From Candidatus Acetothermia bacterium (GTDB lineage Bacteria; Bipolaricaulota; Bipolaricaulia; UBA7950), in the NCBI GenBank assembly GCA_022684035.1, contig JAJHSB010000077.1, positions 1-40,828 on the forward strand: DNA of 40,828 nt. The letters are read 5' to 3'. Shown piece after piece: positions 5,062 to 37,741 of the stretch (positions are counted from its first letter, which is position 1; the number at the start of each line of letters is the position of its first letter). Below the pieces are notes generated by a model that saw nothing but the letters and a program-made list of their open reading frames with translations, made no database searches and was not told the DNA's origin. Position numbers and translations under genes: made by a program.

Positions 5062-5081
5062 CGGAGTCGTCCCTGACTCCG
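5062..5081. repeat. Short hairpin in intergenic repeat
   Basis: Arms CGGAGTC and GACTCCG enclose a 6-base loop in the 200-base gap between the CBS gene and the helicase gene. There is no T-run, so it is not a convincing terminator. The surrounding text (TTGTCGGGTT...AGCCCGA) also has partial symmetry, as in other repeats of this window. Confidence 0.5.
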
Positions 5082-5167
5082 CAAAGGTGTATGGTAGACT
5101 TCCTCACTTGTCGGGTTCAGTGGCGAGCCCGACTACAACAAGGAGCAGGGTTGACTGAATATATACC

Positions 5168-7822: not shown

Positions 7823-8083
7823 GCTAACTGCATCAGGTGTTACCATTACTTGGTAATCATTGGCAAGAAGCCAGTAAGAATATTTGGATCATCTCCCAAA
7901 AGTTGGTAAAATCATGAGGATTTGAGGGGTCAAGCCCTGTATCAAGTACGGGGCAAGGATTCGAAGGCAATGCTTATAAAATCCTTACTAAAAAATAAGC
8001 ACTTGAATCCTTGAATCCTTTCTATATATTACAATCGACGTTTCAGTCAAAGGAGAAAAGGCTCTACCAGCCTACTTAATTAT
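7823..8083. other. Intergenic region with short repeats upstream of proS
   Basis: No gene is visible. It contains the second copy of the GGATCATCTCCCAAAA repeat (7886-7906), a partly symmetric tract around GGGTCAAGCCCTG (7929) and a 'cttgaatccttgaatcct' direct duplication near 8001-8020. AAGGAG at about 8051 lies too far (about 30 bases) from the proS ATG to be its ribosome site. Confidence 0.5.
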
Positions 8084-9805
8084 ATGCGTTGGTCTAAACA
8101 TTACATTCCGACTCGCAAGGAGACTCCGAGTGATGCTGAGCTGATCAGTCACAAACTGATGGTCAGAGCAGGGATGATTCGCAAAGTCGCCGCCGGAATT
8201 TATAATTATCTGCCGCTGGGGATGAAGGTTCTGCGGCGCATCGAGATGATCGTTCGTGAAGAGATGGATCGCCACGGAGGATTGGAGATAAAATTACCGA
8301 TCATCCAACCAGCAGAGTTGTGGCAACGGACTGGTCGGTGGAATGACTTTGGTCCGGAAATGTTCAAATTGACGGATCGCAAAGGGCAGTTGTTTACACT
8401 CGGTCCGACTCACGAAGAGATAATCTCCGACCTGGTGCGGCTTGATATCCGCTCTTATAAAGAGCTCCCTCTCCTCCTCTACCAGATAAATGACAAATAT
8501 CGTGATGAGATCAGGCCGCGTTTCGGTCTGATGCGGTCGCGTGAGTTTCTGATGAAAGACGCCTACTCGTTCCATGCCGATCAGGAATCACTGGAGGAGA
8601 TCTACCAACATATGTACAAATGTTACTGCCGGATATTGACCCGTTGCCGGCTTGATTTTACCGCGGTGGAAGCTCCTACCGGTCTGATGGGAGGGAATCT
8701 TTCCCACGAGTTTATGGCGTTGGCCGATGCAGGAGAAGATGAAGTCGTCTGTTGTCAACAGTGCGGATACGCCGCCAATCTGCAGATTGCTACCTTTCAT
8801 GCTGCGGAGTCTTACGAGGAAGAAAGAGAAGAGCAATTAACCCTCGTTGCCACTCCTGGTAAAGAGACGGCGAGAGAGGTGGCCTCCTTCCTTAAAGTTG
8901 GAGTCGAGCGGATCATCAAGACGTTTATCTACGCCACAGAAAAGGGCCATATCGCCGTCCTTATCCGTGGTAATCACGAGTTGGCTGAAGAGAAACTCCA
9001 TGCTGTACTCGCTGATCCGCATCTTGCTCGTATTGACGATGAGCAGCAAGTGAGAAGACTAACTGGCGCATCGTTTGGATCGTTGGGCCCGATCGGTCTT
9101 AATATGCCGATTATTGCTGATCAATCGCTCGTCAGCTCCCGTAACTTTGTCGTCGGGGGGAATAAAGAGGGGTATCACTACTGCAGTGCCAACTTTGGGC
9201 GCGATGTGAAGATCGATCGATTCATACAGATTCGCCGCGCTGCGCCAGGGGATCACTGTTCTCATTGTTACGGCGAACTGGTCTTCAGGCGCGGCATTGA
9301 AGTAGGACAAATATTCCAGTTAGGAACTAAATACTCGGTTGCGCTGGGAGCGAATTTCTTATCCTCTGACGGTGCGGAGAGACCGTTGATTATGGGCTGT
9401 TATGGAATCGGAGTCAGCCGAATCTTAGGGGCAATCATCGAACAGCATCATGATGAGAAAGGAATCATTTGGCCGACTGAGTTAGCGCCGTTTACCGTTA
9501 TCATTATTCCCCTCTCTGCGATGGGCGAGCAGCTTGCGGTGGCGGAAAAGATCTACATCGCACTTACGCAAGCAGGTATTGATATCCTCCTCGATGATCG
9601 AAACGAGTCAGCCGGAGTCAAATTTCATGATGCGGAACTGTTAGGCATTCCCCTCCAAGTGGTGATCGGCAAACAGAGTCTTGCTACTGAGACGATCGAA
9701 CTCCAACGACGCTCTGATAGCGAGAAGCTATCTGTCTCGCTCGCTAATGGCATCACAGAGGTCGTAGCGCAGATTGCAAAGGAGATTACTAAAACTGAGG
9801 AATGA
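8084..9805 (+). CDS. proS: Prolyl-tRNA synthetase, bacterial type
   Basis: A 573-aa class II aminoacyl-tRNA synthetase that charges tRNA-Pro. The start RWSKHYIPTRKETPSDAE and SHKLMVRAGMIRKVAAGIYNYLPLG are typical of the bacterial long form. Motif 2 is around YRDEIRPRFGLMRSREFLMKDAYSF, and motif 3 is GCYGIGVSRILGAI near residue 445. Between motifs 2 and 3 (about 225-390) lies the INS/YbaK-like editing insertion, which removes mischarged Ala. The C-terminal anticodon-binding domain begins near APFTVIIIPL. Length is standard. The ATG lacks a good Shine-Dalgarno, but the N-terminus aligns exactly with the family. Confidence 0.97.
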   Translation: MRWSKHYIPTRKETPSDAELISHKLMVRAGMIRKVAAGIYNYLPLGMKVLRRIEMIVREEMDRHGGLEIKLPIIQPAELWQRTGRWNDFGPEMFKLTDRKGQLFTLGPTHEEIISDLVRLDIRSYKELPLLLYQINDKYRDEIRPRFGLMRSREFLMKDAYSFHADQESLEEIYQHMYKCYCRILTRCRLDFTAVEAPTGLMGGNLSHEFMALADAGEDEVVCCQQCGYAANLQIATFHAAESYEEEREEQLTLVATPGKETAREVASFLKVGVERIIKTFIYATEKGHIAVLIRGNHELAEEKLHAVLADPHLARIDDEQQVRRLTGASFGSLGPIGLNMPIIADQSLVSSRNFVVGGNKEGYHYCSANFGRDVKIDRFIQIRRAAPGDHCSHCYGELVFRRGIEVGQIFQLGTKYSVALGANFLSSDGAERPLIMGCYGIGVSRILGAIIEQHHDEKGIIWPTELAPFTVIIIPLSAMGEQLAVAEKIYIALTQAGIDILLDDRNESAGVKFHDAELLGIPLQVVIGKQSLATETIELQRRSDSEKLSVSLANGITEVVAQIAKEITKTEE

Positions 9806-9957
9806 TTGAATTAGGCTTAAGTCAACTTGGCTGAGGCAGCAGTGTCAATCTTACAACAGGAGGCTCCTCCCGCCGTACCCTACATGTTAGTTTCCGTTCC
9901 TCCGAACCGTGAACCCTGGAACCTTGAACCTAAAGTAGCTACATTTATCCGTTTGAA

Positions 9958-10404
9958 TCAGCTTTTGGGAAGCGTGGCAATCCGCCAATATTCTTGTACT
10001 GTGGTAATCAGTTTTTCAAAATCCTCCGAGTTGACCGGCTTACTCATATAGCTGGCAGCACCGCTGTCATACGCCCTTACTGCATCCTCTTCGCGTGTTG
10101 ATATCGTAAGGACTATCACAGGAATCCGACGAAGTTGCTGATCCTGTTTAATCTCTTTTAAGACCTCAAAGCCATCAATCTTGGGAAGGTTCAGGTCAAG
10201 GAGAATGAGATCCGGCCGAGGAACAGTGCTAAAATTACCGCGCTGAAAAAGGAAATCCAACGCTGCCTTCCCATCAACAACAAAGAAGAGATCACATTTA
10301 ATCGCGCTGCGCTTCATTGTCCGTTCAATGATCTTTACATCAGTCGGACTATCTTCCACTACTAAAACCTTCATCCTAATCTTCTGAGATAGGCTATTTT
10401 GCAT
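9958..10404 (-). CDS. Single-domain response regulator (Rcp1-like)
   Basis: A stand-alone receiver domain of 148 aa with no output domain. The acidic pair is in VLVVEDSPTD, the phospho-acceptor Asp in LILLDLNLPKIDG, the conserved Thr in VIVLTIST and the Lys in MSKPVN. The insert 'FLFQRGNFSTVPRPD' before the phospho-Asp is typical of Rcp1-type regulators paired with phytochrome-like kinases. The start at 10404 overlaps the kinase gene by 11 bases; a second ATG at 10374 directly before VLVVED is possible. It is almost certainly the partner of the upstream kinase. Phosphate passes to a further protein, or the receiver acts by binding a target not seen here. Confidence 0.9.
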   Translation of the reverse strand: MQNSLSQKIRMKVLVVEDSPTDVKIIERTMKRSAIKCDLFFVVDGKAALDFLFQRGNFSTVPRPDLILLDLNLPKIDGFEVLKEIKQDQQLRRIPVIVLTISTREEDAVRAYDSGAASYMSKPVNSEDFEKLITTVQEYWRIATLPKS

Positions 10405-12244
10405 TTGTCACCACCTTGTTTTTAGCCGCTACTTTTGGAATAGAAAAGTAGAAAGTAGTGCCTTTGCCGACTTCCGACTTTACCCAAATTTCACCTTTAT
10501 GTTCTGTCACGATTCGTTTACTGATGGCAAGACCAGCTCCAGTTCCTTCAAATTCTTTTGGGTTCAATTGCTCGAACATACCAAATATCTTCTCCTGGTA
10601 ACGAGCTTCAATTCCAATACCATTATCCTGGACAAAGAAGGTGTAATGCCCGTTGCCGGTATCTTTCCAGCCCACCCGGATAACCGGCAATGCCTTGTCG
10701 TTAAATTTAACGGCATTGCTGATAAGATTATGAAACAGCTCAGTAATGCGGGTTTTATTTCCCATGACTTGTGGAAAGTGATTCGCTATCTGAAGATTCA
10801 CTCTCCGGTCACGGAGAAGCACCTCTAAATCCTCTTTTGCCTCCTTAAGAACATCTCCCACATTGACTGGTACAAATGATGCGGCATCCAGACGGATACT
10901 GGAGAGAGAACGAAGATTGTCAACTAACTTACGCATCCTATCAGAACAATTCATAATGATCGTCAAATATTCACGCCCTTCTCCGTCCAGTTTTTCTTTA
11001 TAATCTTCCAACAGATAAGAGCAGTAGACAGAGAGGGTGCGCAAAGGTTCTTTGAGGTCGTGTGAGACTACATGTGAAAATTCCTCCAAAGTTTCGTTGC
11101 TTCGCTCGAGACGTTCCGTCTTTTCACGTAATCCCTCTTCCAATCGCTTGATCTCGGTGATGTCGATATAATAATCGATGCGCCCTCCTTGATACTTGTC
11201 AGTTTCAATCGGGATGCTCCGATATTCGAAGATCCGTTTCTTACACCCTGAGTCACAACGTACCCGGCAGATATGTGAGTCGATCCGTTTGTTGTTGGTA
11301 ACAGCATCAGCAACGATCCGGCGAAAATCATCGATCTCTTCCAAGACACCGACATACCGATTGAACGCGACCATCGCATCGATACCGATCAATCTCTCGC
11401 GATCGACCCCGAAAAAGGTTTCGATCGTCTCATTCGCCCATACAACCTCTCGCTTTTTATCAATAATGATAATCGCTGAATTGAGTGTGTCGATACCATC
11501 TTCGATCAAATAACGGTACCTTGCTTCTGTCTCCGCCAGTTGCCGTTCCAGTTCCTCCATCTCGCGTCGATCAACAATCTCCATAATGGCAGACATGTGC
11601 CCTTTAGCGCGTGTTGCCGCTATTTCAACCGGAATGACAACCTTTTTTACCGAAATAAACCGCGCTTTGACATTTTCCACCATGCCTCGTTCAAAGACAC
11701 GAATCAATGCAGATTTTACATTCTCTATATCGTCAGGATGAACATATTCCGCCATACTTAATCTTCGACTTTTCGCATATCCGAGAAGAGCATGCGACTG
11801 CTCATTCCGCCGCAAAATATTTCCATTCTTATCAACAAAATGAATCATATTAATCGAATTTTCAAAGATATCCTCATTAGATAGCTCTTTTACATTCTTT
11901 GTGCGTTGCCATTCTTCTTGTCGCCGAGCACGTCTCTGGTTGAGCCAACCAATGCTTATTCCCAGTAAAAGAGATGCGATCATAAACCCAACTGGAACTA
12001 ATAGACCATCTTCCCATAACAAAGGAAATCCTGCCAGCGCGGTAAAAAATCCCAACGACGCTCCTCCGCGCATTTTACACAGCGCTGAGCCAAAAACTAA
12101 TGGAATGATCAAAGCAATAAATACAATTACGGCGGAGAGATGGTTTTGCATAAAGAGCCGTTGCAAAGAGAGCAACCCAATCACTACGCTGTATATGACG
12201 ATTAATATAATCGTTTTTTCACGTGAAGTTAATTCTCCCATCAC
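10394..12244 (-). CDS. Membrane-bound PAS sensor histidine kinase
   Basis: A 616-aa kinase. Residues 10-95 hold three or four hydrophobic segments, then a basic stretch (NQRRARRQEEW) marking the cytoplasmic side. Two PAS domains follow (about 100-215 and 240-365). The second contains a Cys-rich segment, CRVRCDSGCKKR, that might bind a metal or simply be structural. A short coiled coil leads to HisKA with FSHVVSHDLKEPLRT (phospho-His near 392), then HATPase_c with the N box (ELFHNLISNAVKFN) and G boxes (DNGIGIE, GTGAGLAI). The HDLKEPL form belongs to phytochrome/Rcp1-type kinases. No GAF or PHY chromophore domain is present, so the signal is unknown. It overlaps its regulator gene. Confidence 0.92.
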   Translation of the reverse strand: MMGELTSREKTIILIVIYSVVIGLLSLQRLFMQNHLSAVIVFIALIIPLVFGSALCKMRGGASLGFFTALAGFPLLWEDGLLVPVGFMIASLLLGISIGWLNQRRARRQEEWQRTKNVKELSNEDIFENSINMIHFVDKNGNILRRNEQSHALLGYAKSRRLSMAEYVHPDDIENVKSALIRVFERGMVENVKARFISVKKVVIPVEIAATRAKGHMSAIMEIVDRREMEELERQLAETEARYRYLIEDGIDTLNSAIIIIDKKREVVWANETIETFFGVDRERLIGIDAMVAFNRYVGVLEEIDDFRRIVADAVTNNKRIDSHICRVRCDSGCKKRIFEYRSIPIETDKYQGGRIDYYIDITEIKRLEEGLREKTERLERSNETLEEFSHVVSHDLKEPLRTLSVYCSYLLEDYKEKLDGEGREYLTIIMNCSDRMRKLVDNLRSLSSIRLDAASFVPVNVGDVLKEAKEDLEVLLRDRRVNLQIANHFPQVMGNKTRITELFHNLISNAVKFNDKALPVIRVGWKDTGNGHYTFFVQDNGIGIEARYQEKIFGMFEQLNPKEFEGTGAGLAISKRIVTEHKGEIWVKSEVGKGTTFYFSIPKVAAKNKVVTNAK

Positions 12245-12416
12245 TAAGGATCATCCTTGAAGCGGATTTCGTTAATCTTTAGTGGAGCGTGAACGCCATC
12301 CGTACTACGCGCGCTGCGGCACAACCACTGTTACTATCTTCTGCAAGGATAAAAGAGGAACCGTTTATCCTCAAAGACACTGATCACCTATCTGGTGGTA
12401 TTTTTTCTTTGTAACC

Positions 12417-13091
12417 TTATATAATTACATTACCATCCAAATTCAAAGAGGATGATTCGATCATTCGTAGTAGATGATTCTTATCACAAATTTGGATTTT
12501 ACGGTTTTCAACTGAAATGATGCCGCGTTCTTCGAATTCAGAGAGAGTTCTGATTGCCGTTTTCGAGGATACTCCGGCCATCTCAGATAGCTCAGCGCGG
12601 GAAAGTTCAATTCCACTTTCTCCGAGGCAGAGAATCAAACGCGCTAATCGTTCCTTACTACTGGCATAAGAACGTTCGGCAAGTTTATCCTGAAAGGCTT
12701 TTATCTCTTCTGATAACTTCTTAAACAACCGGAAGATAACCTTGGGATTCCGTTCGAGAAAGTAAAAGAAATCTCCTCGTTCGATGAATCCGACAACAGC
12801 GGCATCAAGTGTTTTAGCGTATGCATTATGACTCCCCTTATCAAAGAGAGTCGTCTCTCCCAAAATCTCTCCTGGACCGATGATTTTTAAGATTTGACTC
12901 TTGCCGCGCAGACTTCGTTTTACAATTTTGATCGCTCCCTGAAAGACAAGGTAGAAGCCGAATGCAGGAGCTCCCTCCATGAAGATGATCTCATCATGTC
13001 CGTAACGAATCTCTTTAATCGTTGAGCGTAGTCTTTCCAGATCCCGTTCTTTCAGATCGGAAAAGACAGCAAAATTTTGTAGTTCAACCAT
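12417..13091 (-). CDS. Crp/Fnr-family transcription regulator
   Basis: A 224-aa regulator. An N-terminal cyclic-nucleotide-binding-type beta barrel (about residues 10-120, with GEILGETTLFD at the family's phosphate-binding-cassette position) precedes a dimer helix and a C-terminal winged helix (LSRAELSEMAGVSSKTAIRTLSEFEERG). The barrel has no N-terminal Cys cluster, so it is not an O2-sensing Fnr. I place the start at 13091 because GAGGAGA lies 7 bases before that ATG; the frame continues upstream to another ATG at 13148, with a sequence unlike the family. It stands alone, 170 bases from the kinase gene. A 14-bp palindrome at 13197-13210 upstream could be its operator. Confidence 0.9.
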   Translation of the reverse strand: MVELQNFAVFSDLKERDLERLRSTIKEIRYGHDEIIFMEGAPAFGFYLVFQGAIKIVKRSLRGKSQILKIIGPGEILGETTLFDKGSHNAYAKTLDAAVVGFIERGDFFYFLERNPKVIFRLFKKLSEEIKAFQDKLAERSYASSKERLARLILCLGESGIELSRAELSEMAGVSSKTAIRTLSEFEERGIISVENRKIQICDKNHLLRMIESSSLNLDGNVII

Positions 13092-23849: not shown

Positions 23850-24152
23850 ATGGACACAACATCTGGGGTGACAAATCGGTACCAATATGCGAGGGAGAAG
23901 CCATCGCTCCTGGCAAGGATGAGGAAAATCGAAGGCCAGGCGAGAGGCGTTCAGCAGATGATCGAGGACGAGCGCTATTGTATTGATATCGTCCAGCAGT
24001 TGACCGCCCTCTCGAGAGCTGTTGACGAGGTCTCGCTCCTTATCCTGGAGAGTCATATTGAAGGCTGCGTCGTTGATGCCATCCGTGACCAGCACAGCGA
24101 AGGTTATATTAGGGAGCTGATGGGAACGATACGAAAAGCCATGAAGTGGTGA
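23850..24152 (+). CDS. csoR: Copper-sensing repressor CsoR (DUF156)
   Basis: A 100-aa all-helical metal regulator. The Cu(I) ligands Cys44 (ERYCIDI), His69 and Cys73 (SHIEGCVV) have the exact spacing of M. tuberculosis CsoR (25 and 4). The family helix LLARMRKIEGQARGVQQMI is intact. Such tetramers leave DNA when they bind Cu(I), relieving repression of copper-export genes. copA lies 0.8 kb downstream, which supports copper over nickel (RcnR) or formaldehyde (FrmR). A good promoter with an operator-like dyad precedes the gene. Confidence 0.93.
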   Translation: MDTTSGVTNRYQYAREKPSLLARMRKIEGQARGVQQMIEDERYCIDIVQQLTALSRAVDEVSLLILESHIEGCVVDAIRDQHSEGYIRELMGTIRKAMKW

Positions 24153-24230
24153 TAACGGTTTTTCGGCTGACGAGCAAAGTGTCATATTTGGGGGATTGCA
24201 GCAGGCACAGATACTATGAGGAGGTAGATT

Positions 24231-24647
24231 ATGAACAAGAACATGAAGATAGCCTTGGTCATCGGGGGTATAGTGGTGGCCATCCTTATCGTGCTACCCC
24301 TGGTATTCGGACCAACCTGGGGATGGCGTGGCGGGAGGTGGGGAATGCCGTGGTGGTGTCCCATGGAAGGATTCGGCTGGGGGTGGCGTGGCGGGAGGTG
24401 GGGAATGCCGTGGTGGGGTCCCATGGAAGGATTCGGCTGGGGGTGGTTTATGCCGGTATTTATGATCCTCTTCGGGGGGCTGGTGATCTGGGGAGTGGTG
24501 GCCATGGTGCGGGGAATGAGCCATCCTAGTAGCCCCACCTCCAGTTCCAACCAACCGGACTCGGCCCTAGAGGTACTGAAGAAGAGGTATGCCCGGGGTG
24601 AGATCAGTAAAGCGGAATACGAGGAGAAGAGGAACGACATCTCCTGA
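24231..24647 (+). CDS. Trp/Gly-rich membrane protein with SHOCT tail and internal duplication
   Basis: The 138-aa protein starts with a hydrophobic segment (about 5-27). A 20-residue unit (RGGRWGMPWWxPMEGFGWG) repeats twice, followed by a second membrane segment (about 72-94). A linker leads to a SHOCT motif, SALEVLKKRYARGEISKAEY, at the C-terminus. SHOCT proteins are common beside copper-export genes and are of unknown function. The first unit has PWWCP, the second PWWGP. The methionines and the Cys could bind copper, but this is inference. AGGAGGT precedes the ATG. It lies between csoR and copA and probably belongs to the copper regulon. Confidence 0.85.
   Translation: MNKNMKIALVIGGIVVAILIVLPLVFGPTWGWRGGRWGMPWWCPMEGFGWGWRGGRWGMPWWGPMEGFGWGWFMPVFMILFGGLVIWGVVAMVRGMSHPSSPTSSSNQPDSALEVLKKRYARGEISKAEYEEKRNDIS
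24324..24443 (+). repeat. 60-bp exact tandem duplication inside the SHOCT gene
   Basis: Units 24324-24383 and 24384-24443 differ at one base (unit position 34, T or G), which changes Cys to Gly. The length is a multiple of three, so the frame is kept. Such near identity implies a recent event or a polymorphic copy number. Confidence 0.95.
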
Positions 24648-24649
24648 AT

Positions 24650-24730
24650 AGGCCTAACCTGGACGAGCCGGAAATCCTAATGACCAAATCTCAATTTCCA
24701 AACAATAACCAAATCCCAATAACCAATCCC
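24650..24730 (-). repeat. Dispersed repeat B, inverted copy 3
   Basis: On the minus strand this reads as repeat B of 1-69 and 22026-22080, with a few substitutions (for example GGCTCGTCC for GGCTTGTCC). It forms the inner right arm of the bracket around nadA-csoR. It is followed by direct 'cgtggttcgtgactcgtggctcgtggg' and 'agtcaccagtcacgagtcac' tracts of low complexity. Confidence 0.88.
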
Positions 24731-24824
24731 TGCCTTCGGCTCGTGGTTCGTGACTCGTGGCTCGTGGGATCTTCCCCTCCAGTTACCAGTCACCAGTCAC
24801 GAGTCACTCTTTCTGGTAGCTAGT

Positions 24825-24887
24825 TATTGGTGCTTGGAATTTGTGATTTCAACTCTTTGCCATTTTGCGCAAGACTTTAGATTTTAG
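24825..24887 (-). repeat. Dispersed repeat A, inverted right copy
   Basis: 24825-24852 is the exact reverse complement of 21833-21860, and 24864-24887 matches 21776-21799 inverted with one mismatch. The spacer is 11 bases and lacks the REP-like insertion seen on the left. Confidence 0.92.
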
Positions 24888-24926
24888 GACCCAAATTGAC
24901 CGGCACCAGCGATGGAGGTGCAATAG

Positions 24927-27413
24927 ATGTTTAACGAAACCAGACAGACAAATAAGATAACCATTCCGATCACGGGCATGACCTGTGCCTCATGTGTCGC
25001 CAGTGTTGAGAAGGCACTAGCGAAGGTGCCAGGGGTGCTATCAGTTAAGGTTAACCCGGCCACGGAGAAGGCAAGCGTAGAGTATCTCAAGGATGAGGCC
25101 GGCATGGCGGACTTCCAGCAGGCGGTGGAATCGGCCGGATATTCGGTGATGGCTGAGAAAGAGAAGGCGATACTGAAGATCGGCGGCATGACCTGTGCTT
25201 CGTGCGCTCAGACGATCGAAAAAGCTCTAACTAAGGCCGAAGGAGTGGTTGAGGCTAACGTTAATCTGGCTACTGAACAAGCCACGGTAGAGTTTGATGC
25301 AGGAGTAACGAATCTTAGCGCATTGGAAAAGGTGATCGAGGGGATTGGCTATCAGGTGATTAAAAAGGAAGCCGGGGGAAAAGAGGCGGAGAAGGTTGAT
25401 GAAGATCTACTAAAAGTCGAAAAGGCAAGAAGACGATTCCTCTCCGCCGTGATTCCTACCGCAGTATTAATGATCTTGATGATACTTGATTTCATGGCCG
25501 TGATGATTCCCGCCCACCACGAGATAATGGCTCTGCTGGGATTTCCGGTAGTATTTCTTTCCGGCTGGTCCACCCATCGGGCTTCCTTTATGGCGATTCG
25601 TGGTGGACGGGCTAATATGGATGTCCTCATCTCACTGGGCTCGGTACCGGCTTACTTAATAGGAGTGGCGGTACTTATCCCGCCGGCCGTTTCTTTCATC
25701 GAGCTGTCCACGATGGTTGTTACTTTTCACCTGCTTGGCAGATACTTGGAGGTACGGGCTAAAGGTCAAGCCTCCCAGGCAATCAAGAAATTACTGCAAT
25801 TGGGAGCTAAAACAGCTCACATCCAGGTGGATGGTGAGGAGAAAGAGATAGCCATCGAAGATGTAAAGATAGGGGATATTATGGTCGTCCGACCGGGCGA
25901 GAAGATCCCCACCGATGGAGTAATCGTGGAGGGGGAGAGTGCGATTGATGAATCTATGGCTACCGGAGAATCGATGCCGGTGCAAAAGCATGCCGGTGAT
26001 GAGGTTATCGGCGCAACTATAAACCAGCAAGGCCTGCTGAAGGTAAAGGCAACCAGGATAGGCAAGGATACTTTCTTATCCCAGATGATCAAAATGGTCG
26101 AGGAATGCCAGGGCTCTAAGGTTCCCATACAGGAGTTTGCCGACAGGGTGACGGGCTATATGGTACCCGCGGTGCTCGCAGTAGCCCTGACAACCGTCGT
26201 TGCCTGGCTCATCTTCCCGGGCTTTTTTATGAACATCATCACCTGGGCTGAGCCGTTTCTTCCCTGGATAAACCCCGATTTGGGGACGGTGACGCTAGCC
26301 CTCTTTGCCGGGATTGCCGTCCTGGTTATCTCTTGTCCTTGTGCGCTCGGTCTAGCTACTCCCACGGCGTTAATGGTGGGTAGCGGTATGGGTGCCGAGC
26401 ATGGGGTCCTGATCCGCCACGGAGAGGCGATTCAGACGATGAAGGATATCCACACGATTGTATTTGACAAGACGGGAACTATCACCCACGGCAAACCAGC
26501 GGTGACCGATATTCTTAGCGGCCGGGAATTTAAGGAAGAGGATATTCTTTATATTGCAGCCAGCCTGGAGCAAGGATCAGAGCATCCGCTGGGGCAGACC
26601 TTGGTCAGAGAAGCCAGAGAACGGGGAAATGGTCTGGGTGAGGTAACCGGTTTCGCAGCTATTCCCGGCAAAGGCGTAAAAGGCGTGGTGGATAGCAGGG
26701 AAGTCCTGGTCGGAAATCAGAAGTTGATGAGCGACTACGGAATAGATTTCAGTCAATTTATGGATAGGTTGGACAGGCTGGAAGACGAAGCCAAGACTGC
26801 TATCCTGGTGGCGATTGATAGCGAGATAGCCGGTATCATTGCCGTGGCCGATACCTTGAAAGAGGACTCCATTCAAGCTATCGCCGAGCTGAAGGAGATG
26901 GGCCTGGAAACGGCGATGATCACCGGGGATAACCGCAGGACCGCTGAGGCAATTGCCAGGAAAGTCGGTATAACCAGGGTGTTGGCCGAAGTTCTGCCCC
27001 AGGATAAGGTAGCCGAGATCCAGCGCCTGCAGGATGCGGTGGGGATGGTGGCGATGGTTGGCGACGGCATTAACGATGCTCCAGCCCTTACTCAGGCCAA
27101 TGTGGGAATAGCGATCGGCACAGGAACCGACATCGCGATTGAATCATCCGACATCATTCTAGTGAGAGGAGACTTAAGCTCCGTAGTTACCACAGTGAAG
27201 CTCTCTCGGGCCACCTTCAGGAAGATCAAGCAGAACTACGTCTGGGCCTGGTTCTACAACGGGCTGGCCATTCCTCTGGCGGCTATCGGGCTGCTACATG
27301 CGATGATCGGGGTGGCTGCGATGGCCATGAGCTCCGTCAACGTGATCACCAACTCCCTGCGGCTGAGGAAGGCAAGGATCAAACCGGGCAGGCGCCAAGG
27401 GGGCAAGGGGTAA
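24927..27413 (+). CDS. copA: Copper-translocating P-type ATPase CopA
   Basis: An 828-aa P1B-type ATPase that exports Cu(I) across the inner membrane. Two N-terminal metal-binding domains each carry MTCASC (near 17-22 and 89-94). Eight membrane segments include the CPC site [17 protein letters not shown] near 473. The phosphorylated Asp is in [16 protein letters not shown] is the nucleotide-domain His motif, and the hinge is [12 protein letters not shown]. The C-terminal membrane pair has the [10 protein letters not shown] and [16 protein letters not shown] motifs of Cu(I) pumps. GGAGGT is 7 bases before the ATG. It forms a copper-resistance group with csoR and the SHOCT protein, though repeats of 280 bases separate it from them. 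Confidence 0.97.
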
Positions 27414-28211: not shown

Positions 28212-28240
28212 TTGACAACCACCATTTCATGTGGTAAGAT
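28212..28240 (+). promoter_or_regulatory. Strong sigma-70 promoter with dyad, upstream of the Rrf2-type gene
   Basis: TTGACA (28212-28217) and TAAGAT (28235-28240) are spaced by exactly 17 bases. Between them ACCAC-N8-GTGGT (28218-28235) forms a dyad where a repressor could sit. It probably drives the Rrf2 gene and possibly the downstream cysteine/CODH genes. The Rrf2 product itself is the obvious candidate repressor. Confidence 0.65.
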
Positions 28241-28246
28241 AATTAT

Positions 28247-28410
28247 CACTGGCTTGATGATATTACTGATATTTGGGTGCATCCGATGAAGCTCTCTAAG
28301 TGAAGTCCTTTGTTGAAGTGAAGATGGCTGATGTCAGTTGGCAGGATTGTTATTACTAGCTTGATGATATTATTCTGATGAGGTACACATTATGAGGCTC
28401 TCTACTAAAG
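28247..28410 (+). repeat. Partial duplication of the rrf2 leader and start
   Basis: Two copies spaced by 106-107 bases share CTTGATGATATTA (from 28253 and 28360) and ATGA(A/G)GCTCTCTA (from 28286 and 28392). The first copy dies after four codons (ATG-AAG-CTC-TCT-AAG-TGA). The second is the true gene start. Hence the leader was duplicated and the first copy decayed, or it is kept as a decoy or leader peptide. Confidence 0.7.
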
Positions 28411-28835
28411 CAGAATATGGCTTAAGGGCGATGCTTGACCTGGCTATCCGCTCAGGCGAGGGCCCGGTTCTGGTAAGAGAGATTGCCAGGAGGCAGGGGT
28501 TCTCGGCGCGCTATCTGGAGCAACTGCTCCTTCCCCTGAAAGCAGCCGGCTTGGTAAGGGCGACCAGGGGGGCTCACGGAGGATTTTCCCTGGCCAGGTC
28601 ACCTTCAGAGATAAACCTCAGTGAGATTATCCAGATTATGGAGGGATCGATGGCTCCAGTGGAGTGTGTCGATGACGCTGGAGTATGCGCCCGCGCCGAT
28701 TTGTGTATCACCCGTGAAATCTGGGGGGAGATGAAAAGAGCCGTGGATGGGGTTTTGGAGTCTACAACATTGCAGGATCTGGCCGACCGGCAGAAAAGGA
28801 AGGAACAGTCTGCTGAGGCGATGTACAACATCTAA
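28392..28835 (+). CDS. Rrf2-family regulator (IscR/CymR-like)
   Basis: A 147-aa winged-helix regulator. The start MRLSTKAEYGLRAMLDLA and the helix-turn-helix (VREIARRQGFSARYLEQLL) with wing TRGAHGGFSLAR are classical. Cys92, Cys99 and Cys105 stand at the position and near spacing of the Fe-S-binding cysteines of IscR (92, 98, 104), so it may carry a cluster. The Firmicute relative CymR controls cysteine synthesis and binds CysK. Here cysK lies 150 bases downstream. I infer control of the cysK-transporter-cooS-cysE group according to Fe-S or cysteine status. Confidence 0.9.
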   Translation: MRLSTKAEYGLRAMLDLAIRSGEGPVLVREIARRQGFSARYLEQLLLPLKAAGLVRATRGAHGGFSLARSPSEINLSEIIQIMEGSMAPVECVDDAGVCARADLCITREIWGEMKRAVDGVLESTTLQDLADRQKRKEQSAEAMYNI

Positions 28836-28986
28836 AACTGCTCAGGTTGTTAGATTCACAGTTACTTACTCATCTTCATCGTTTTCTAACCTTGAACCGC
28901 TGAACTTTGAACCTAAGTAGTCATACATCTATTGTGCGACATAAAAGAAGAAAAGCCACTACTATGATTAAAAGGAGGAGATCAAA

Positions 28987-29985
28987 ATGGCAATGACAGA
29001 GATAATTCAAAAAGTGGAGATGCTTCGATATAAGACAGTAGAGATACCGAAGCTAACCAGAGGCATAGCCCGGGACTCAAGCGAGTTAATCGGGAATACA
29101 CCGCTGGTCAAATTGAATCGAATAACCGAAGGGTTAGAGGCAGAGGTGGTAGCAAAGCTTGAGTCGTTCAATCCCATAGGCAACGTGAAGGACCGGATAG
29201 GGGTAGCGATGATCGTTGATGCCGAGGAGAAGGGGCTTATCAATAGTGATACCGTAATCGTCGAGCCCACCAGCGGCAATACCGGCATTGCTTTGGCCTT
29301 CGTCTGCGCCGCCAGGGGATACAGGCTCATTCTCACCATGCCGGATACCATGTCCTTGGAACGGAGGCAACTTTTGACTGCTTTCGGCGCTGAACTGGTG
29401 CTAACCCCGGGGGCAGAGGGTATGAAGGGTGCGGTAAGGAAAGCGGAGGAGCTGGTAGCAGAGGACCCGAGACGCTTCATGCCGCAACAGTTTAAAAACC
29501 TGGCGAATCCCGAGATACACCGCCTGACCACCGCCGAGGAGATCTGGAGGGATACCAAAGGGAGGGTGGATATTCTGGTCTCCGGGGTGGGGACCGGGGG
29601 GACGATAACTGGAGTCGCCCAAGTAATCAAGCAAAGGAAACCGAAGTTTATCGCGATCGCAGTGGAGCCGGAAAACTCTCCAGTCTTATCTGGAGGGCAA
29701 CCGGGGCCACACAAAATACAGGGTATCGGGGCCGGGTTTGTTCCTGACGTCTTGGATGTGGAGCTGATTGACGAGATTATTACGGTGAGTAACGAAGATG
29801 CCTTTAAGACCACCAGAGACCTGATTCGGAAGGAAGGAATCCTGGCAGGAATTTCCTCCGGCGCTGCGGCCTGGGCTGCCTTGCAGGTGGCGAGAAGGCC
29901 GGAAAACAAAGAGAAACTCATCGTAGTGGTCCTGCCTGACACGGGAGAACGTTACTTAACTACGCAACTATTTCGAGAGGAATAA
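28987..29985 (+). CDS. cysK: Cysteine synthase (O-acetylserine sulfhydrylase)
   Basis: PLP enzyme that makes cysteine from O-acetylserine and sulfide. The PLP Lys68 is in NPIGNVKDR, where Asn stands for the usual Ser two residues before the Lys. [13 protein letters not shown] binds the substrate carboxylate, and [10 protein letters not shown] holds the PLP phosphate. SGAAAWAAL near 298 places the Ser that contacts the PLP pyridine nitrogen. A 25-residue N-terminal extension precedes the fold, giving 332 aa against the usual 305-315. AGGAGG stands 7 bases before the ATG. The next gene follows after 12 bases, so the sulfide-fixing enzyme and the transporter are co-transcribed. Confidence 0.95.
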
Positions 29986-29997
29986 AAGGAGGAAGAA

Positions 29998-31014
29998 ATG
30001 AGAAAGCTCAAGATAATATCCATATTGTTGGCATCCATCTTGTTGGTTGGTCTGGTTAGTATAATGCTTGGCAGATTTGCTGTCGAAGATGAGAAACCAA
30101 CGCTGAAGGTGGGTTACTTGCCAATAACCCATTCCACCCTGCCGCTGATTGTTTATGCCCAGAATCAGGGCAGATTGGAACACTTCAACCTGGAGATGGT
30201 AAGATTCGCAAGCTGGCCCGAGCTGGCTGAAGCAATCAAGACTGGCAGGATCGATGCCGGCGGATCTATCCTTAACACTCTGGCAATCAAGATTAATTAC
30301 AGAGGTGTACCATTCAACACGGTGTTAATGGCCGTGAGGGATGGCAGCGTGTTAATAGTAAGAAAGGATATCAAGGATGTAAGTGAATTGAGGGGGAAAA
30401 CAATAGCCATCCCTTCAAGGTTCTCGCCGCACTTCATCCTGTTACACCAATATCTTACCGATCACGGCCTGGAGCCTGGTGTGGATGTCAAAACAGTTGA
30501 GATGAAGCCGCCGGATATGGTGTCGGCGTTAGCGGCCGGCGCTATCGATGGCTATATCGTTGCGGAGGCTTTCGGTGTTATGGCGGAAAGACTGGCCGTC
30601 GGCAGAGTTCTGATTCTGTCGAAAGATATCGAGATACCCGGGTCGAAGAGTAACGAGTGCGTGATCGCTATCAGAAGTGAATTCATTGATAAATACCCCG
30701 AAGCGGTGCAGGAGTTTGTCAACAAGTTAATTCAGGCCGGTATATGGGCGGAGGAGAATCCCCTGGAATCGGCAAAACTGGTAGCGCCCTTTCTGGGACA
30801 AGAACCGGAGACCATAAGGCGCGCTCTAATGGAGCCGAAAGGCAGAACAAGATTTATCGACTTATACCCCAGGGAGGAAGAATTGGCAGTATTTCAGGAC
30901 CACATGCTAAGGCTCGGGTTGATAGAGAAGGGGATCGATATAAAAGAATTCGTTGATGAAAGGTTTGCCGCAGAAGCTTATAGGAAATTTGGCCTGGAGA
31001 AGCTGGAGTGGTGA
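29998..31014 (+). CDS. ABC transporter substrate-binding protein (SsuA/TauA/NMT1-like)
   Basis: The 338-aa protein has an N-terminal hydrophobic segment (about 4-27) without a lipobox Cys, so it is either secreted or membrane-anchored. The mature part starts LKVGYLPITHSTLPLIVYAQ and has IKTGRIDAGGSILN, ELRGKTIAIPSRFSPHFILL and MVSALAAGAIDGYIVAEAF, the layout of type II binding proteins for nitrate, sulfonates, taurine or thiamine precursors. The ligand cannot be read from the sequence. The location between cysK and cysE/cooS favours a sulfur compound. AGGAGG precedes the ATG. Confidence 0.85.
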   Translation: MRKLKIISILLASILLVGLVSIMLGRFAVEDEKPTLKVGYLPITHSTLPLIVYAQNQGRLEHFNLEMVRFASWPELAEAIKTGRIDAGGSILNTLAIKINYRGVPFNTVLMAVRDGSVLIVRKDIKDVSELRGKTIAIPSRFSPHFILLHQYLTDHGLEPGVDVKTVEMKPPDMVSALAAGAIDGYIVAEAFGVMAERLAVGRVLILSKDIEIPGSKSNECVIAIRSEFIDKYPEAVQEFVNKLIQAGIWAEENPLESAKLVAPFLGQEPETIRRALMEPKGRTRFIDLYPREEELAVFQDHMLRLGLIEKGIDIKEFVDERFAAEAYRKFGLEKLEW

Positions 31015-31812
31015 ATGATGGAAGAGGCACGATCAAGAAGAACTATGCTAGGTAGATTTTCACCTTTTTTCGTCTTTTTGTTACTGCTAGCTATCTGGCA
31101 AATAATAGCGGCCTCAGGATTATTCTTACCCCTGCTATTTCCCTCACCGGTAGCAGTTGTTAGAGCAACTGTAGAACTATGGGAAAAGGGGATTTTAGTC
31201 AGAGATATTACCGCGAGCCTGTCCCGAGTCTTCTCAGGTTTTATTCTGGCAGCGGTATTTGCGATTCCGTTGGGATTATTACTGGGCTGGTATGCCAGAT
31301 TAAAGCACGCCTTTGATCCCCTGGTCCAGATATTAAGACCGATTTCACCGATAGCCTGGATACCCCTGGCCATATTATGGTTTGGCATCGGGAACAGGCC
31401 GGCCATTTTCATCATATTTATAACATCACTCTTCCCTATCTTGCTAGCTTCAATATCTGCGGTTAAGAATATCGACCAGCTAATAATAAAATCGGCCGTT
31501 AATTTTGGCGCTGGAGGCGGAGATATTCTAAGGAAAATAGTGATTCCAGCTTCGTTTCCATATGTGATGGTGGGCCTGAGAATAGCGCTGGGCATAGCAT
31601 GGGTAATTATTGTGGCCGCGGAGATGGTGGGAATGAGATCCGGGCTTGGCTTCATGATACTGGATGCCCGCAATTTCTTGAGAACGGATATGGTGGTAGC
31701 GGGCATGATAATTATCGGAATAATAGGTCTTATCTTAGATAGAATCATGCTATTTTTTGAGAAATCAATAAGGATCCGGTGGGGCTATAGAGACCTGAAA
31801 GGGGAGCGATAG
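31015..31812 (+). CDS. ABC transporter permease (SsuC/TauC-like)
   Basis: The 265-aa protein has six predicted membrane helices and the cytoplasmic EAA loop (KSAVNFGAGGGDILRKIVIPASFPYVMVGLRIALG) that docks to the ATPase. LILDRIMLFFEK near the end is typical of the SsuC/TauC branch. The ATG follows the stop of the binding-protein gene directly, and a second ATG comes next. Confidence 0.92.
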   Translation: MMEEARSRRTMLGRFSPFFVFLLLLAIWQIIAASGLFLPLLFPSPVAVVRATVELWEKGILVRDITASLSRVFSGFILAAVFAIPLGLLLGWYARLKHAFDPLVQILRPISPIAWIPLAILWFGIGNRPAIFIIFITSLFPILLASISAVKNIDQLIIKSAVNFGAGGGDILRKIVIPASFPYVMVGLRIALGIAWVIIVAAEMVGMRSGLGFMILDARNFLRTDMVVAGMIIIGIIGLILDRIMLFFEKSIRIRWGYRDLKGER

Positions 31813-31815
31813 AGC

Positions 31816-32601
31816 ATGTCCAGGAATAAAATAGTCATCGAAAACGTGAGCAAACACTTCACCGTAAACAATGGAAATCAGAGATTGTATGCCTTAGACA
31901 CGATTAACCTTACAATCAATGAGGGGGAGTTCTTCTGTTTGCTCGGCCCGAGTGGATGTGGAAAATCAACCCTGCTCAACATCTTGGCCGGTTTTTTAAA
32001 ACCAACTGAAGGAAGGGTCTTGATCGACGGCGAAGAGGTCACCGCGCCCAATCCCAAATATGTTACCATTTTCCAGGAATATACGCTTTTCCCCTGGAGA
32101 ACGGTATTAGGAAATGTGAAGTTTGGTTTAGAGATCGGCGGCATGGCAAAGCAGCAACAAAACGAAATTGCATCTAGTTTCATCAAACTTGTTCAATTGC
32201 AAGGATTCGAAGACAGGCATCCTTTTGAGCTTTCGGGGGGGATGAAGCAGCGGGTGGCGATTGCTCGAACACTAGCCGTCGATCCGGAGATAATATTCAT
32301 GGATGAACCGTTTGGCTCTTTGGATGCCATTACCAGGATGGAAATGGAAGAAGAGATAACGAGAATATGGCAGGAGGAAAATAAGACTATTGTTTTCGTC
32401 ACTCATGACATCGAGGAAGCTATATACCTCGCTGACCGGATAGCAATCATGAGCCACCAACCAGGCAGGATTGACAACGTAATCAGGGTGAATCTTGGCC
32501 GGCCAAAGGATAGGACGAGCGATGATTTCTTGAGCATCAGGGATAAGATATATGATGAATTTAAGCTGAAAACAAGAAAGCCGTTTGTTTACCAGATCTG
32601 A
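31816..32601 (+). CDS. ABC transporter ATP-binding protein (SsuB/TauB-like)
   Basis: A 261-aa ATPase. Walker A is GPSGCGKST (about 48-56). The Q loop is in IFQEYTLFPW, the signature is LSGGMKQRVAIAR, Walker B is IIFMDEPFGSLD, and the switch His is in VFVTHDIEEA. The FGSLDA and EEAIYLADRI stretches are typical of nitrate/sulfonate/taurine importers. It starts 3 bases after the permease stop; together with the two genes before it, this gives a complete importer. Confidence 0.95.
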   Translation: MSRNKIVIENVSKHFTVNNGNQRLYALDTINLTINEGEFFCLLGPSGCGKSTLLNILAGFLKPTEGRVLIDGEEVTAPNPKYVTIFQEYTLFPWRTVLGNVKFGLEIGGMAKQQQNEIASSFIKLVQLQGFEDRHPFELSGGMKQRVAIARTLAVDPEIIFMDEPFGSLDAITRMEMEEEITRIWQEENKTIVFVTHDIEEAIYLADRIAIMSHQPGRIDNVIRVNLGRPKDRTSDDFLSIRDKIYDEFKLKTRKPFVYQI

Positions 32602-32622
32602 GGGAGACAAGTAGGTGATAAA

Positions 32623-34620
32623 ATGAAATACCGCTACCCAATATTGAATGCCGAAATGCCGGACAAAGAGGATATTAAGAGAATGACTCCCAATAGGGCG
32701 ACCAGGGAAATGCTGGAATGTCTGGAAGGAGAGGGCATTGAAACATCCTTTGATAGATATATAGCTCAACAACCACAGTGTTCCTTTGGCCTGAGAGGCT
32801 TGTGTTGTCGGCGCTGTTTATGGGGCCCGTGCAGATTAGACACCAGGGGTGACAAGGGGAGGGCAAGAGGCATCTGTGGTGCCGATGTGAATCTTGTGGT
32901 AATGGGTAATCTGCTCAGAGGCTTAGCTGCTGGTTGTGCTGCACACGGACAGCATGCAAGGGAAGTCATCGAAACATTGATCCTTACTGCGGAAGGCAAG
33001 ACCAGTTTTGAGATAGTTGAAAAGGGTGTAATCCTGGAATTAGCAAAACGATTTCATTTGGACATCGGAAAGCCATTTGACCAATTAGCTGCAACCGTAG
33101 GAAAGATATTACTGGACGATCTCTCTCGAGTTGAGGAAGTGGAGATGAAAACTCTGTTGGCTTATGCCCCGGAAGAAAGGATAAATACCTGGAGAGAAAT
33201 GGGCATCTTGCCTCGAAGTGCTTTTTATGAAATCGTCGAAGCACTACACAAGACCACTCTGGGTGGCGATTCCGATTGGAAGGATCTCGCCAAGCAGGAG
33301 CTGAGGACTGCCCTGGCATATTGTTTCAGCACTCTGTTTGGTTCCTCCTTGGCAACGGAAGCGCTATTTGGGATCCCCAGGCCGAAAACAGTGGAGCTAA
33401 ACTATGGCATCCTGGAAAATGACTGCGTAAACATTCTTATTCATGGTCATACCCCTACTTTGGTGGAGAAAATAATAGAAAAAATAGAATCCCCGGAGAT
33501 TCAAAAGCTGGCTAAGGATGCTGGCGCGCAAGGGGTTCAGTTGACGGGGGTCTGCTGCACCGGCGCGGAACTCCTGGCTAGACATGGTATTCCTTCCCTG
33601 GGAGGCATCTTAGCTCAGGAGCTTATAATCGGTACAGGGGCAATAGATGCCGTTATCGTAGATATGCAGTGTGTTATCCCGGGTTTAAAGACAGTCGCTG
33701 ATTGCTGGGGAACAGAGATAATTACAACGAGCCAATCCAATCGGATCCCAGATGCCACTCATGTACCGTTCGATCCGATTAAAGCCGACGAGATAGCATT
33801 AGAGATCTCCAGAAGAGCAGTGGAGGCCTACTCCAGACGACACCATTCGAAGACCAATATACCGGATGTGAAATCGAAGGCAATCATCGGTTTTAGCCTG
33901 GAAGCTATCCTGGATATTTTTGGGGGGAGAAGAAACCTGCTGGAATTGCTGGAATCCGGCAAAATAAAGGGAATAGTTACCGTAGTCGGTTGTAATACAC
34001 CCAAGGTGCCCTACGAAAATAGTCATGTTATCATTGCCAGGGAATTGATCAAACACGGAATATTGGTTACTACGAGCGGTTGTTCCTCCCATGCTCTACT
34101 TAATGCTGGGTTGTGCGCACTCGGTGCAGCAGAGCTGGCCGCCGCAGGGCTGAGAGAAGTCTGCCAGGAAAGGGGAATTCCACCTGTTTTGGCAGTAGGT
34201 GCCTGTGTTGATAATACAAGAACAATCAGATTGTTCATCGAGCTGGCCGAAGAAGCGGGGATGCCGATAAACAAGTTGCCCTTCCTTTTCTCCGGGCCTG
34301 AGCCGGGAAATGAAAAGACGATAGGCCAGGGGATGGCATTTCTGGCATTGGGGGTTAGCGTACATCAGGGTTTCCCCGGACCAATCCCGGTGCCAATTCC
34401 TGTCGCTAAGGCGGATTCAGATTTCCTGGATGATTATGACAGAGGTGGAAATGACGTGGCGGATTTTTTTGCCGAAGACATTCATGATTTGCTGGGGGCA
34501 AGGGTCTATAGTGAACCTTACCCTGATCTAGCAGCCAAGCTAATTCAAATGCATATAAGAAGAAAAAGATTGGAATGGGCCAGCGCAGCTTCTACTTGCT
34601 TGATTTCTGGTACAATGTAA
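32623..34620 (+). CDS. cooS: Anaerobic carbon monoxide dehydrogenase catalytic subunit CooS
   Basis: A 665-aa Ni-Fe-S enzyme interconverting CO and CO2. Cys53 and Cys61 would hold the inter-subunit D cluster. Cys62, Cys65, Cys70 and Cys85 hold the B cluster ([19 protein letters not shown]). C-cluster ligands are all visible: the HGH at 274-276, [10 protein letters not shown] near 310, Cys350 (DMQCVIPG), Cys457 (VVGCNTPK), Cys487 (TSGCSSHA) and Cys528 (GACVDNTR). The protein therefore looks catalytic rather than a degenerate hybrid-cluster relative. No CooF ferredoxin, CooC nickel-insertion ATPase, hydrogenase or acetyl-CoA synthase gene is nearby. It follows the ABC importer by 21 bases and precedes cysE by 25, an unusual setting for a CODH. 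Confidence 0.96.
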
Positions 34621-34645
34621 GGGCTCGGGAAGGAATCTGAGGAAC

Positions 34646-35362
34646 ATGTTCAAAACCTTAAGGGAAGACATCCAGACAATTTTTGCCAAAGACCCGGCCG
34701 CCCGGAGCTGGCTGGAGGTTATCCTCTGTTATCCGGGACTGCAGGCCTTGTGGTGGCATCGCGTCGCTCATTTTCTCTGGCGACACCGCCTTTATCTTCT
34801 CGCCCGGCTGCTGTCTCACATTAGCCGCTTTTTCACCGGGATCGAGATTCATCCTGGCGCGAAGATCGGTCGGCGTTTTTTCATCGACCATGGAATGGGG
34901 GTGGTCATCGGGGAGACGGCTGAGATTGGGGATGATGTCTTGCTCTATCAGGGGGTGGTTCTGGGTGGGACAACGCTGGAGAAGAAGAAGCGCCATCCCA
35001 CACTGGGGTCTAACGTAGTCGTCGGCTCGGCGGCGATCTTGCTTGGGCCGATTACCATTGGCGATAGGGCACTGATCGGGGCCAATTCGGTAGTGGTGAA
35101 GTCTGTACCACCCGGCGCAACCGTGGTGGGGGTCCCCGGACGCGTGGTCGGGGACAAGAAAGAGGAGATTGAAAAACTGGAGCATGGGAAGCTACCCGAT
35201 CCTGTGGCTGAGGCGATCGGACTCGTCCTAATGAGACAGGGCAAGCTCGTAAGACGACTGAAGATGCTGGAGATTTCAGCCGGCATAACAGCCGCTAAAG
35301 ATGAACTGGAAGAGCAAATAAGGGAACTTGAGATGACATTCAGTCAGGGAGAGGGGATATGA
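34646..35362 (+). CDS. cysE: Serine O-acetyltransferase CysE
   Basis: Makes O-acetylserine, the substrate of CysK. The N-terminal helical part ([20 protein letters not shown]) leads into a left-handed beta helix of hexapeptide repeats ([53 protein letters not shown]). The catalytic His is in [17 protein letters not shown]. The C-terminus ends in a charged helix of about 70 residues instead of the short Ile-ending tail that binds CysK in E. coli. GAGGAAC is close to the ATG. With cysK at the other end of the group, both steps from serine to cysteine are present. Confidence 0.95.
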
Positions 35363-36454: not shown

Positions 36455-36784
36455 ATGATGATCACTCATGACTTTGGGGTGATCGCTGAGCTTTGTGAGC
36501 GAGTCGGCGTGATGTATTGCGGGATGATGGTTGAGCTTGCAGATGTTGAAACCTTATTTGAAAAACCAATGCATCCTTACACCCAAGGGTTGCTCGGTTC
36601 CATTCCTATCGGCAGTAACGAGAGACTTGTGACTATCCCAGGAAGTGTCCCCAAACCGATCAACCCTCCCCCAGGATGTCGGTTTCATCATAGATGCGAA
36701 AAAGCAATGGAGATTTGTAAAAAGCAACCACCAATCATTGAGATAGATAAGAATCATTCCGTAGCATGTTATCTTTATGAATAA
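36455..36784 (+). pseudogene. C-terminal fragment of an OppD/DppD-type ATPase
   Basis: Only about the last 110 residues of a 320-330-aa peptide-importer ATPase remain. They open at the switch-His segment (MMITHDFGVIAELCERVGVMYCG) and include the Opp-type Fe-S/regulatory tail: NPPPGCRFHHRCEKAMEICK with HSVACYLYE. Walker A, the signature and Walker B are missing, so it cannot hydrolyse ATP. AAAAGGAGG at about 36415 sits 40 bases upstream, as expected if a deletion joined the old ribosome site to the gene's 3' part. It overlaps the OppF start by 8 bases. Confidence 0.85.
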
Positions 36785-37741
36785 AAAGATTTTAGAAGTA
36801 AAAGGTTTAAAGAAATATTTCCTGTTGAGAGGGTTCTTTTCACGCAAGAGAGGGTTTCTCCATGCAGTTGATAATGTATGTTTTTCCATCACGAGGAGTG
36901 AGACCTTGGGGCTTGTGGGGAGAGCGGCTCGGGGAAGACCACAATCGGTAGAGTAGTCTTACGGCTAATTGAACCCACAGCCGGCGAGATCAACTTAGAT
37001 GGAATCAACCTCGTAAAACTCAACGGCAGGGAAATCCAAAGAACGAGAAGGAAGATGGGAGTAGTCCTCCAAGACCCTAAGGCTTCTCTCAACCCACGAA
37101 TGACTGTCAAGGAGATCCTGCACAGGCCATTGGCGATCCATGATTTTCCGAAGCGAGAAAGATTAGACCGGATACTTGACGTTTTAGAGAGTGTCGGTCT
37201 TGAACCAGGACATCTATGGAGGTATCCCCATGAATTCAGCGGCGATCAACAACAGCGGATAAGTGTTGCTCGAGCAATAATTTTAAATCCAGACCTCATC
37301 GTTTTAGATGAGCCTACCTCCGCATTGGACGTGTCGGTTCAGGCAAAGATCCTTAATTTACTTACCGATCTGCAGAGAGAGTTTAAGCTGACTTATCTTT
37401 TTATCTCTCATAACCTGACTGTTATTCAGTATATTTGCGACTGGGTCGCGGTTATGTATTTAGGCAAAATAGTGGAGTTGACAAAAAATGAGCGGTTCTT
37501 TGAGATTATGAAACATCCTTATACCATTAGCCTGCTATCAGCGGCCCCTATCCCTGACCCTAAAAGAAGGTATGAGGAGAAGATACTCCTGGCAGGTGAG
37601 ATACCAAGCCCAATAAATCCACCTCCCAGATGCAGATTTCACCCAAGATGCTCTCACAGGATGGAAGTATGTAAACGGGAACAACCAGACTTTACTGAGG
37701 TTGAGAAGGATCACTCAGTCGCTTGCTATTTGTATCATTAA
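36777..37741 (+). pseudogene. OppF/DppF-type ATPase gene with one-base frameshift
   Basis: From the ATG at 36777 the frame reads ILEVKGLKKYFLLRG then VDNVCFSITRSETLGLVG and breaks inside Walker A at the G-run 36917-36920. Adding one G gives ESGSGKTTIGRVVLRLIEPT, and the rest continues to 37741: Q loop VVLQDPKASLNPR, signature FSGDQQQRISVARAI (SGDQQ for the usual SGGQ), Walker B LIVLDEPTSALD and the NPPPRCRFHPRC tail. The split parts total about 321 residues, the full family length. The gene is dead if the shift is real; a homopolymer error in the assembly is possible. Confidence 0.88.

Follow-up and report, generated by a model that had tools for sequence, protein, structure and literature searches.

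A nickel carbon monoxide dehydrogenase (Ni-CODH) gene, cooS, lies within a cysteine-biosynthesis operon in a 40,828-nucleotide stretch of DNA (hereafter the window) from Candidatus Acetothermia bacterium, contig JAJHSB010000077.1. We propose that this operon encodes a module for sulfur assimilation, with a clade B Ni-CODH that would have been repurposed to work alongside a small-anion importer and the enzymes CysE and CysK, and we give this reading a probability of roughly 0.45. The broader statement, that the CODH lineage is a functional part of sulfur or cysteine metabolism and not of ordinary CO metabolism, is well supported and likely from its genomic context. An earlier note on this DNA had placed the CODH in sulfur metabolism, and this is now strongly supported by linkage of cooS to cysK (16/17 relatives vs 0/64 other CODHs), two S-adenosylmethionine (SAM) riboswitches, PF01053 enzymes in two loci, and the apparent entry of an importer-cooS cassette into a native cysteine operon. 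Open reading frame (ORF) calling gives the order rrf2-cysK-ssuA-ssuC-ssuB-cooS-cysE on the + strand. The gaps from cysK through cysE are 12, 0, 3, 21, and 25 bp, as first described (0–25 bp), and rrf2 is separated from cysK by 151 bp.

Linkage of cooS to cysteine genes

The search for homologs of the window CooS covered 100 genomes from its own phylum, 300 from a Coriobacteriia class, and 399 from the Thermanaeromonas phylum. The lineage is sharply bounded, the window CooS being 47–62% identical to its members and at most about 44–45% to full-length CooS proteins outside it, and no other member was found in the 100 genomes of the window's own phylum; together, this implies horizontal gain of cooS. 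When neighbors were limited to same-strand genes no more than 1.5 kb away, cysK was found near cooS in 16 of the 17 relatives, in 2 of 13 members of a sister group (Asp-type, see below), and in none of 64 CODHs of other clades. The corresponding counts for ssu-type importer genes were 14/17, 5/13, and 0/64. These counts are not phylogenetically independent, and therefore no p-value is claimed. The usual order in the relatives is cysK-cooS-ssuA-ssuC-ssuB on one strand. The linkage of cysK, cooS, and importer thus recurs widely and is not unique to this contig, but the exact order seen in the window is unusual.

The CysK proteins themselves indicate how the operon was assembled. The window CysK is closest to proteins of its own phylum (80% to G085, then 77, 76, and 72%), whereas the CysKs beside related CODHs share 62–71% with it. 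In the CysK tree it groups with phylum-mates (support 0.90 with the nearest three and 0.95 with seven), and the linked CysKs of Coriobacteriia and Bacillota type fall in separate places. Moreover, phylum-mates that have no cooS at these loci carry rrf2-cysK (L176, whose Rrf2 has the same cysteine motif as that of the window) or adjacent cysK-cysE (L177, L178, and L183–L187). The window locus is most simply read as the product of an apparent insertion, in which an ssuACB-cooS cassette came to lie between the native cysK and cysE and gave an order other than the common one. GC content differs between the cassette (45–49%) and cysK/cysE (54–56%), which suggests insertion, but GC content is just as low in genes beyond the 3' end of the operon, and the contrast is therefore only supportive. 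In L177, upstream of position 7744, the cysK-cysE pair follows the end of a gene that by eye is of SufB/SufD type, hinting at an Fe-S assembly link of the native cysteine operon.

That one CODH lineage is found with CysKs of different lineages points to selection for the link. By chance alone, cooS-ssu could have hitchhiked into a cysteine operon with no functional connection, and clade B CODHs do occur alone or with only a transporter (also PMC13056359). However, the linkage spans three distant bacterial groups with differing gene orders and CysK lineages, which makes chance co-location very improbable.

Phylogeny and active site of the CODH

In a tree of 92 CooS sequences, the window protein clusters with its 17 relatives in a single clade (support 1.0), sister (1.0) to 13 sequences in which Asp replaces the second C-cluster Cys. 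This Asp-type group includes an R. albus protein with an adjacent transporter, and we infer from the Asp motif and the transporter context that it belongs to clade B. Groups B-1 to B-3 are marked by Asp (or Glu) at that Cys, and complete ligands within clade B define group B-4 (PMC6344411). By motif and tree, the window CooS is assigned to clade B, group B-4; the phylogenetic placement suggested in the earlier note has thereby yielded a clade B lineage with support of 1.0. Alignment bears out the full set of C-, B-, and D-cluster ligands reported before: no cluster cysteine is missing, and the C-cluster His is in place, as are the catalytic His and Lys. The D-cluster motif is of type II (C53-X7-C61-C62), and a His-rich extension is absent.

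Two positions set the lineage apart. Four residues after the catalytic Lys (Ile567 in ChCODH-II), in an alignment ungapped around that Lys, Gln569 or its equivalent is present in 16/16 sequences of the lineage, while Ile is present in 61/61 other CODHs. Gln is also found in the basal L049, and Ala in 12 of the 13 sister Asp-type sequences. In addition, a His that is invariant in other CODHs (LHMGSC) is replaced by Ala524 in the window lineage. Judged from the alignment, the active site of this lineage has been remodelled, and it is shown to differ at a fixed position from all sampled CODHs of other clades. A literature search on Ile567/I567 and Moth_1972 returned no paper.

Regulation in relatives

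S-box SAM riboswitches (87.5 and 85.5 bits) head the operon in two relatives, L111 and L118. In L111, the riboswitch is followed by two PF01053 enzymes, cysK, cooS, and ssuACB, and the two leading ORFs of L118 begin with residues nearly identical to those of this PF01053 pair. PF01053 enzymes of Cys/Met metabolism are present in two annotated loci, L111 and L107, the latter with two such genes directly 3' of ssuB. An Rrf2 protein with the cysteine motif C-X6-C-X5-C is encoded upstream of cysK in L114, as in the window; in the Asp-type L119, an Rrf2 lacking this motif is encoded upstream of cooS.

Operon structure and gene content of the window

Gene families were assigned by Pfam and NCBIfam profiles with curated cut-offs. 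All genes are on the + strand. cysK (28987..29985) encodes an O-acetylserine (OAS) sulfhydrylase (TIGR01139, 479.6 bits, cut-off 351), cooS (32623..34620) the clade B Ni-CODH with full B, C, and D ligands and Gln569 at the Ile567 position (TIGR01702, 557 bits, cut-off 478), and cysE (34646..35362) a serine O-acetyltransferase (TIGR01172, 247 bits, cut-off 211) ending in Ile (GEGI), as docking into CysK requires. The canonical CysK and the C-terminal Ile of CysE are shared with the bacterial cysE-cysK cysteine synthase operon; unlike in that operon, the pair is split by the importer-CODH cassette.

Between cysK and cooS lie genes for an ATP-binding cassette (ABC) importer: a NitT/TauT-type solute-binding protein (NMT1_2) in the ssuA position (29998..31014), a permease in the ssuC position (31015..31812), and an ATPase in the ssuB position (31816..32601), the latter two identified by Pfam/NCBIfam. 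All three score below the curated Ssu cut-offs (SsuA 137.7 vs 163.5, SsuB 176.7 vs 395, SsuC 145.4 vs 347). Therefore, of the initial name "SsuABC-like" only the resemblance holds, and "NitT/TauT-type importer" is the safer name.

The regulator gene rrf2 (28392..28835) encodes an Rrf2-family protein (PF02082) whose cysteines, C-X6-C-X5-C, resemble the [2Fe-2S] ligand spacing of IscR. It had been described as CymR/IscR-type; the resemblance and the IscR-like spacing stand, but the protein falls short of both curated cut-offs, scoring 133.9 against 195 for CymR despite the three-Cys motif and 108.7 against 207.6 for IscR. Upstream of rrf2 lies a sigma-70-like promoter (28212..28240, +), TTGACA-17-TAAGAT with TG before the -10, matching 10/12 positions. 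The site reported as a strong promoter is thus present, but the number of sigma-70-like sites in the region is at chance level. A 42-nt direct repeat on the + strand has one copy overlapping the -10 (28224..28265) and another, 79% identical, just upstream of rrf2 (28331..28372), and is a possible operator, that is, a candidate regulator-binding site at the rrf2 promoter. Isolation of cooS by a promoter or terminator inside the operon, a prospect raised by the earlier note, found no support in a promoter and terminator scan, and an Rfam scan of the window found no family match and no riboswitch.

The draft genome (1.56 Mb, 92.6% complete) contains a single CooS-type gene; a clade A CODH/acetyl-CoA synthase (ACS) cluster lies apart from it on contig C21 (cdhA 1078 bits, cdhC), so the window CooS is not the Wood-Ljungdahl enzyme. 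No cooF, cooC, hydrogenase, or ACS gene is present in the operon itself; the reported absence of these partners holds for the operon, but not for ACS in the genome as a whole. Apart from the window CysK, the draft yielded no CysK, only remote matches (27–29% identical).

Elsewhere in the window, positions 23850–27413 hold what by eye looks like a copper-homeostasis cluster, with a CsoR-like small regulator (100 aa), a copper-type P-ATPase (24927–27413), and a Gly/Trp-rich protein with internal repeats (24231–24647). At 36455–37741, two ORFs of 109 and 228 aa for Opp-type ABC ATPases, both apparently without their N-terminal parts, may be a decayed or frameshifted dipeptide importer preceding an N-acyl-amino-acid deacylase-like ORF.

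Proposed function and alternatives

In the proposed module, the importer would bring in a small anion; relatives of its binding protein take up nitrate, bicarbonate, taurine, and sulfonates. The simplest candidates would be reduced anions of C1-sulfur type, for example thiocyanate, thiocarbonate, or a thiocarbamate. The CODH, with Gln replacing a hydrophobic residue beside the open Ni site, would free or handle sulfide at the C-cluster and exchange electrons through its retained D-cluster. CysK would then capture the sulfide on OAS supplied by CysE, and Rrf2 (S-box RNAs in relatives) may tune expression to cysteine, methionine, or Fe-S status. The specific step of sulfide release by the CODH from a compound that the importer takes up is put forward tentatively; carbonyl sulfide (COS) or a C1-sulfur anion is a plausible source. 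It is doubtful, but conceivable, that group B-4 Ni-CODHs as a whole act in the cell as Ni-Fe-S desulfurases rather than as CO dehydrogenases, with a C-cluster that, through the Gln next to its open Ni site, would strip sulfide from an imported C1-sulfur anion and pass it to cysteine synthase.

The importer could instead serve cofactor supply, carrying nickel or a metal complex while CysE and CysK provide cysteine sulfur for maturation of a CODH that performs CO/CO2 chemistry, a reading akin to the milder alternative of the earlier note. Nickel import has been proposed for clade B transporters by Inoue et al. (PMC6344411), maturases are usually missing from clade B operons (PMC13056359), and the Cys pattern of Rrf2 is IscR-like. 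The AlphaFold2 model of the binding protein (mean predicted local distance difference test score 90.5) best matches 3UN6, its best solved relative, whose title presumably names zinc, followed with similar scores by taurine, sulfonate, nitrate, and bicarbonate binders. Its family has invariant Trp73, His145, and Glu190 and a conserved Cys221; His145, Glu190, and Cys221 could be read as favoring a metal, but Trp73, His145, and Glu190 would fit a small-anion site. Nevertheless, His113 and Cys220, both nearly invariant, are absent from the binding protein of the window, and the window CODH is without a His-rich metal-binding extension. Moreover, the 64 CODHs of other clades have the same cluster demand and are never beside cysK, S-box control and partners from Cys/Met metabolism indicate sulfur metabolism as such, and the fixed Gln is left unexplained. 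Cofactor supply is thus rather unlikely, though worth keeping in view.

Electron supply, in which CO oxidation would drive reduction of imported sulfonate or sulfite to sulfide for CysK, is distinctly unlikely. It is consistent with the retained D-cluster ligands and with siroheme-reductase matches at nearby places in two related genomes. Genes for AsrC-like siroheme and MoeB/ThiF-like proteins lie divergently upstream of the cysK-cooS operon in L108 (5997–7711) and L111 (741–2438), possibly as another sulfur-transfer system. However, the AsrC-like proteins do not reach the curated cut-off, and the operon has no CooF-type partner. Neither a siroheme sulfite reductase nor an ATP sulfurylase was detected in the host genome, an incomplete draft, or in three Coriobacteriia hosts, which speaks against import of sulfite or sulfate as the sulfur source in these four hosts.

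Handling of cyanide or thiocyanate is similarly improbable: a CODH-type site together with CysK would process an imported cyano compound with recovery of its sulfur. CysK-family enzymes can serve as cyanoalanine synthases, and small anions are the cargo of NitT/TauT relatives. In CODH, one and the same site is used by COS, cyanide, and CO (PMC6008375). Against this, by profile score the window CysK is a canonical OAS sulfhydrylase, the terminus by which CysE docks into CysK is intact, and the operon has no nitrilase, cyanase, or rhodanese gene.

Several points weigh against the proposed sulfur-assimilation module. The substrates of both importer and CODH are predicted, and the place of Ile567 beside the open Ni site of ChCODH-II is presumed from the CODH-II literature. 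The most basal relative, G229 (47% identity; L105), lacks both cysK and an importer next to cooS, and its CooS has Gln at the His93 position; in this locus (3813–12689), cooS lies among GGDEF/EAL proteins. In the sister Asp-type group cysK linkage is sporadic, with 3/21 loci in a wider sample of one order, so the cysteine link is not extended to the whole of clade B. L132 and L134, whose cooS has a long His-rich N-terminus, carry a T-box ahead of cysE-cysK (6423–6637 and 6439–6654, respectively) with a UGC (Cys) specifier identified by eye, but an intrinsic terminator, also called by eye, lies between cysK and cooS; this rules out the T-box as proof of cysteine control of cooS. Most relatives with the operon do carry siroheme reductases, and cells may simply obtain sulfide from their surroundings, in which case no step to release it would be needed. 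Finally, COS is a gas that would need no ABC importer, and it is stated to be a reversible inhibitor of the R. rubrum CODH (PMC6008375, a secondary statement); our search on COS and CODH found only secondary statements.

Relation to known systems

The association of clade B Ni-CODHs with NitT/TauT ABC transporters is already published (Inoue et al., PMC6344411; eLife 2026, PMC13056359). Those systems share with the window the CODH clade (by tree and motifs), the transporter class, and the lack of a maturase in the operon, but the window system differs in its position within a cysteine operon with cysK, cysE, and rrf2; no mention of cysteine synthase, Rrf2, or related terms was found in the text of either paper. 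According to PMC13056359, clade B function is not deducible from genome context, and biochemical characterization of any member is awaited. Cysteine synthase and transporter genes are described next to cooS4 of Calderihabitans maritimus KKC1 (PMC7306483), a likeness of described context; the window differs in its gene order, cysE, and rrf2, and the portions of that paper considered here contain no analysis of the function, conservation, riboswitches, or active site of cooS4. A "cysteine synthase" cooS context in the human gut, mainly in Megasphaera (PMC11338639), is alike in having cysK near a cooS. It probably corresponds to the Asp-type, His-rich clade B of L132 and L134, loci that appear to be from Megasphaera, and would thus be unlike the window in its CODH type, Cys T-box, and terminator between cysK and cooS. 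The conserved cysteine-operon membership, the riboswitches, the insertion, and the Gln appear to be new; no prior statement of linkage conservation, regulation, or active-site change was found in the open-access literature, the scope of our search.

Placement in cysteine operons, S-box leaders, association with different CysK lineages, and a fixed active-site change give one clade B lineage a testable role, namely sulfur supply. If the desulfurase function were true of group B-4, it would constitute a sulfur route that bypasses sulfite reductase in strict anaerobes. If sulfide is indeed released by the CODH, Ni-Fe-S clusters would have a new metabolic reaction, and anaerobes that lack sulfite reductase a new source of sulfur.

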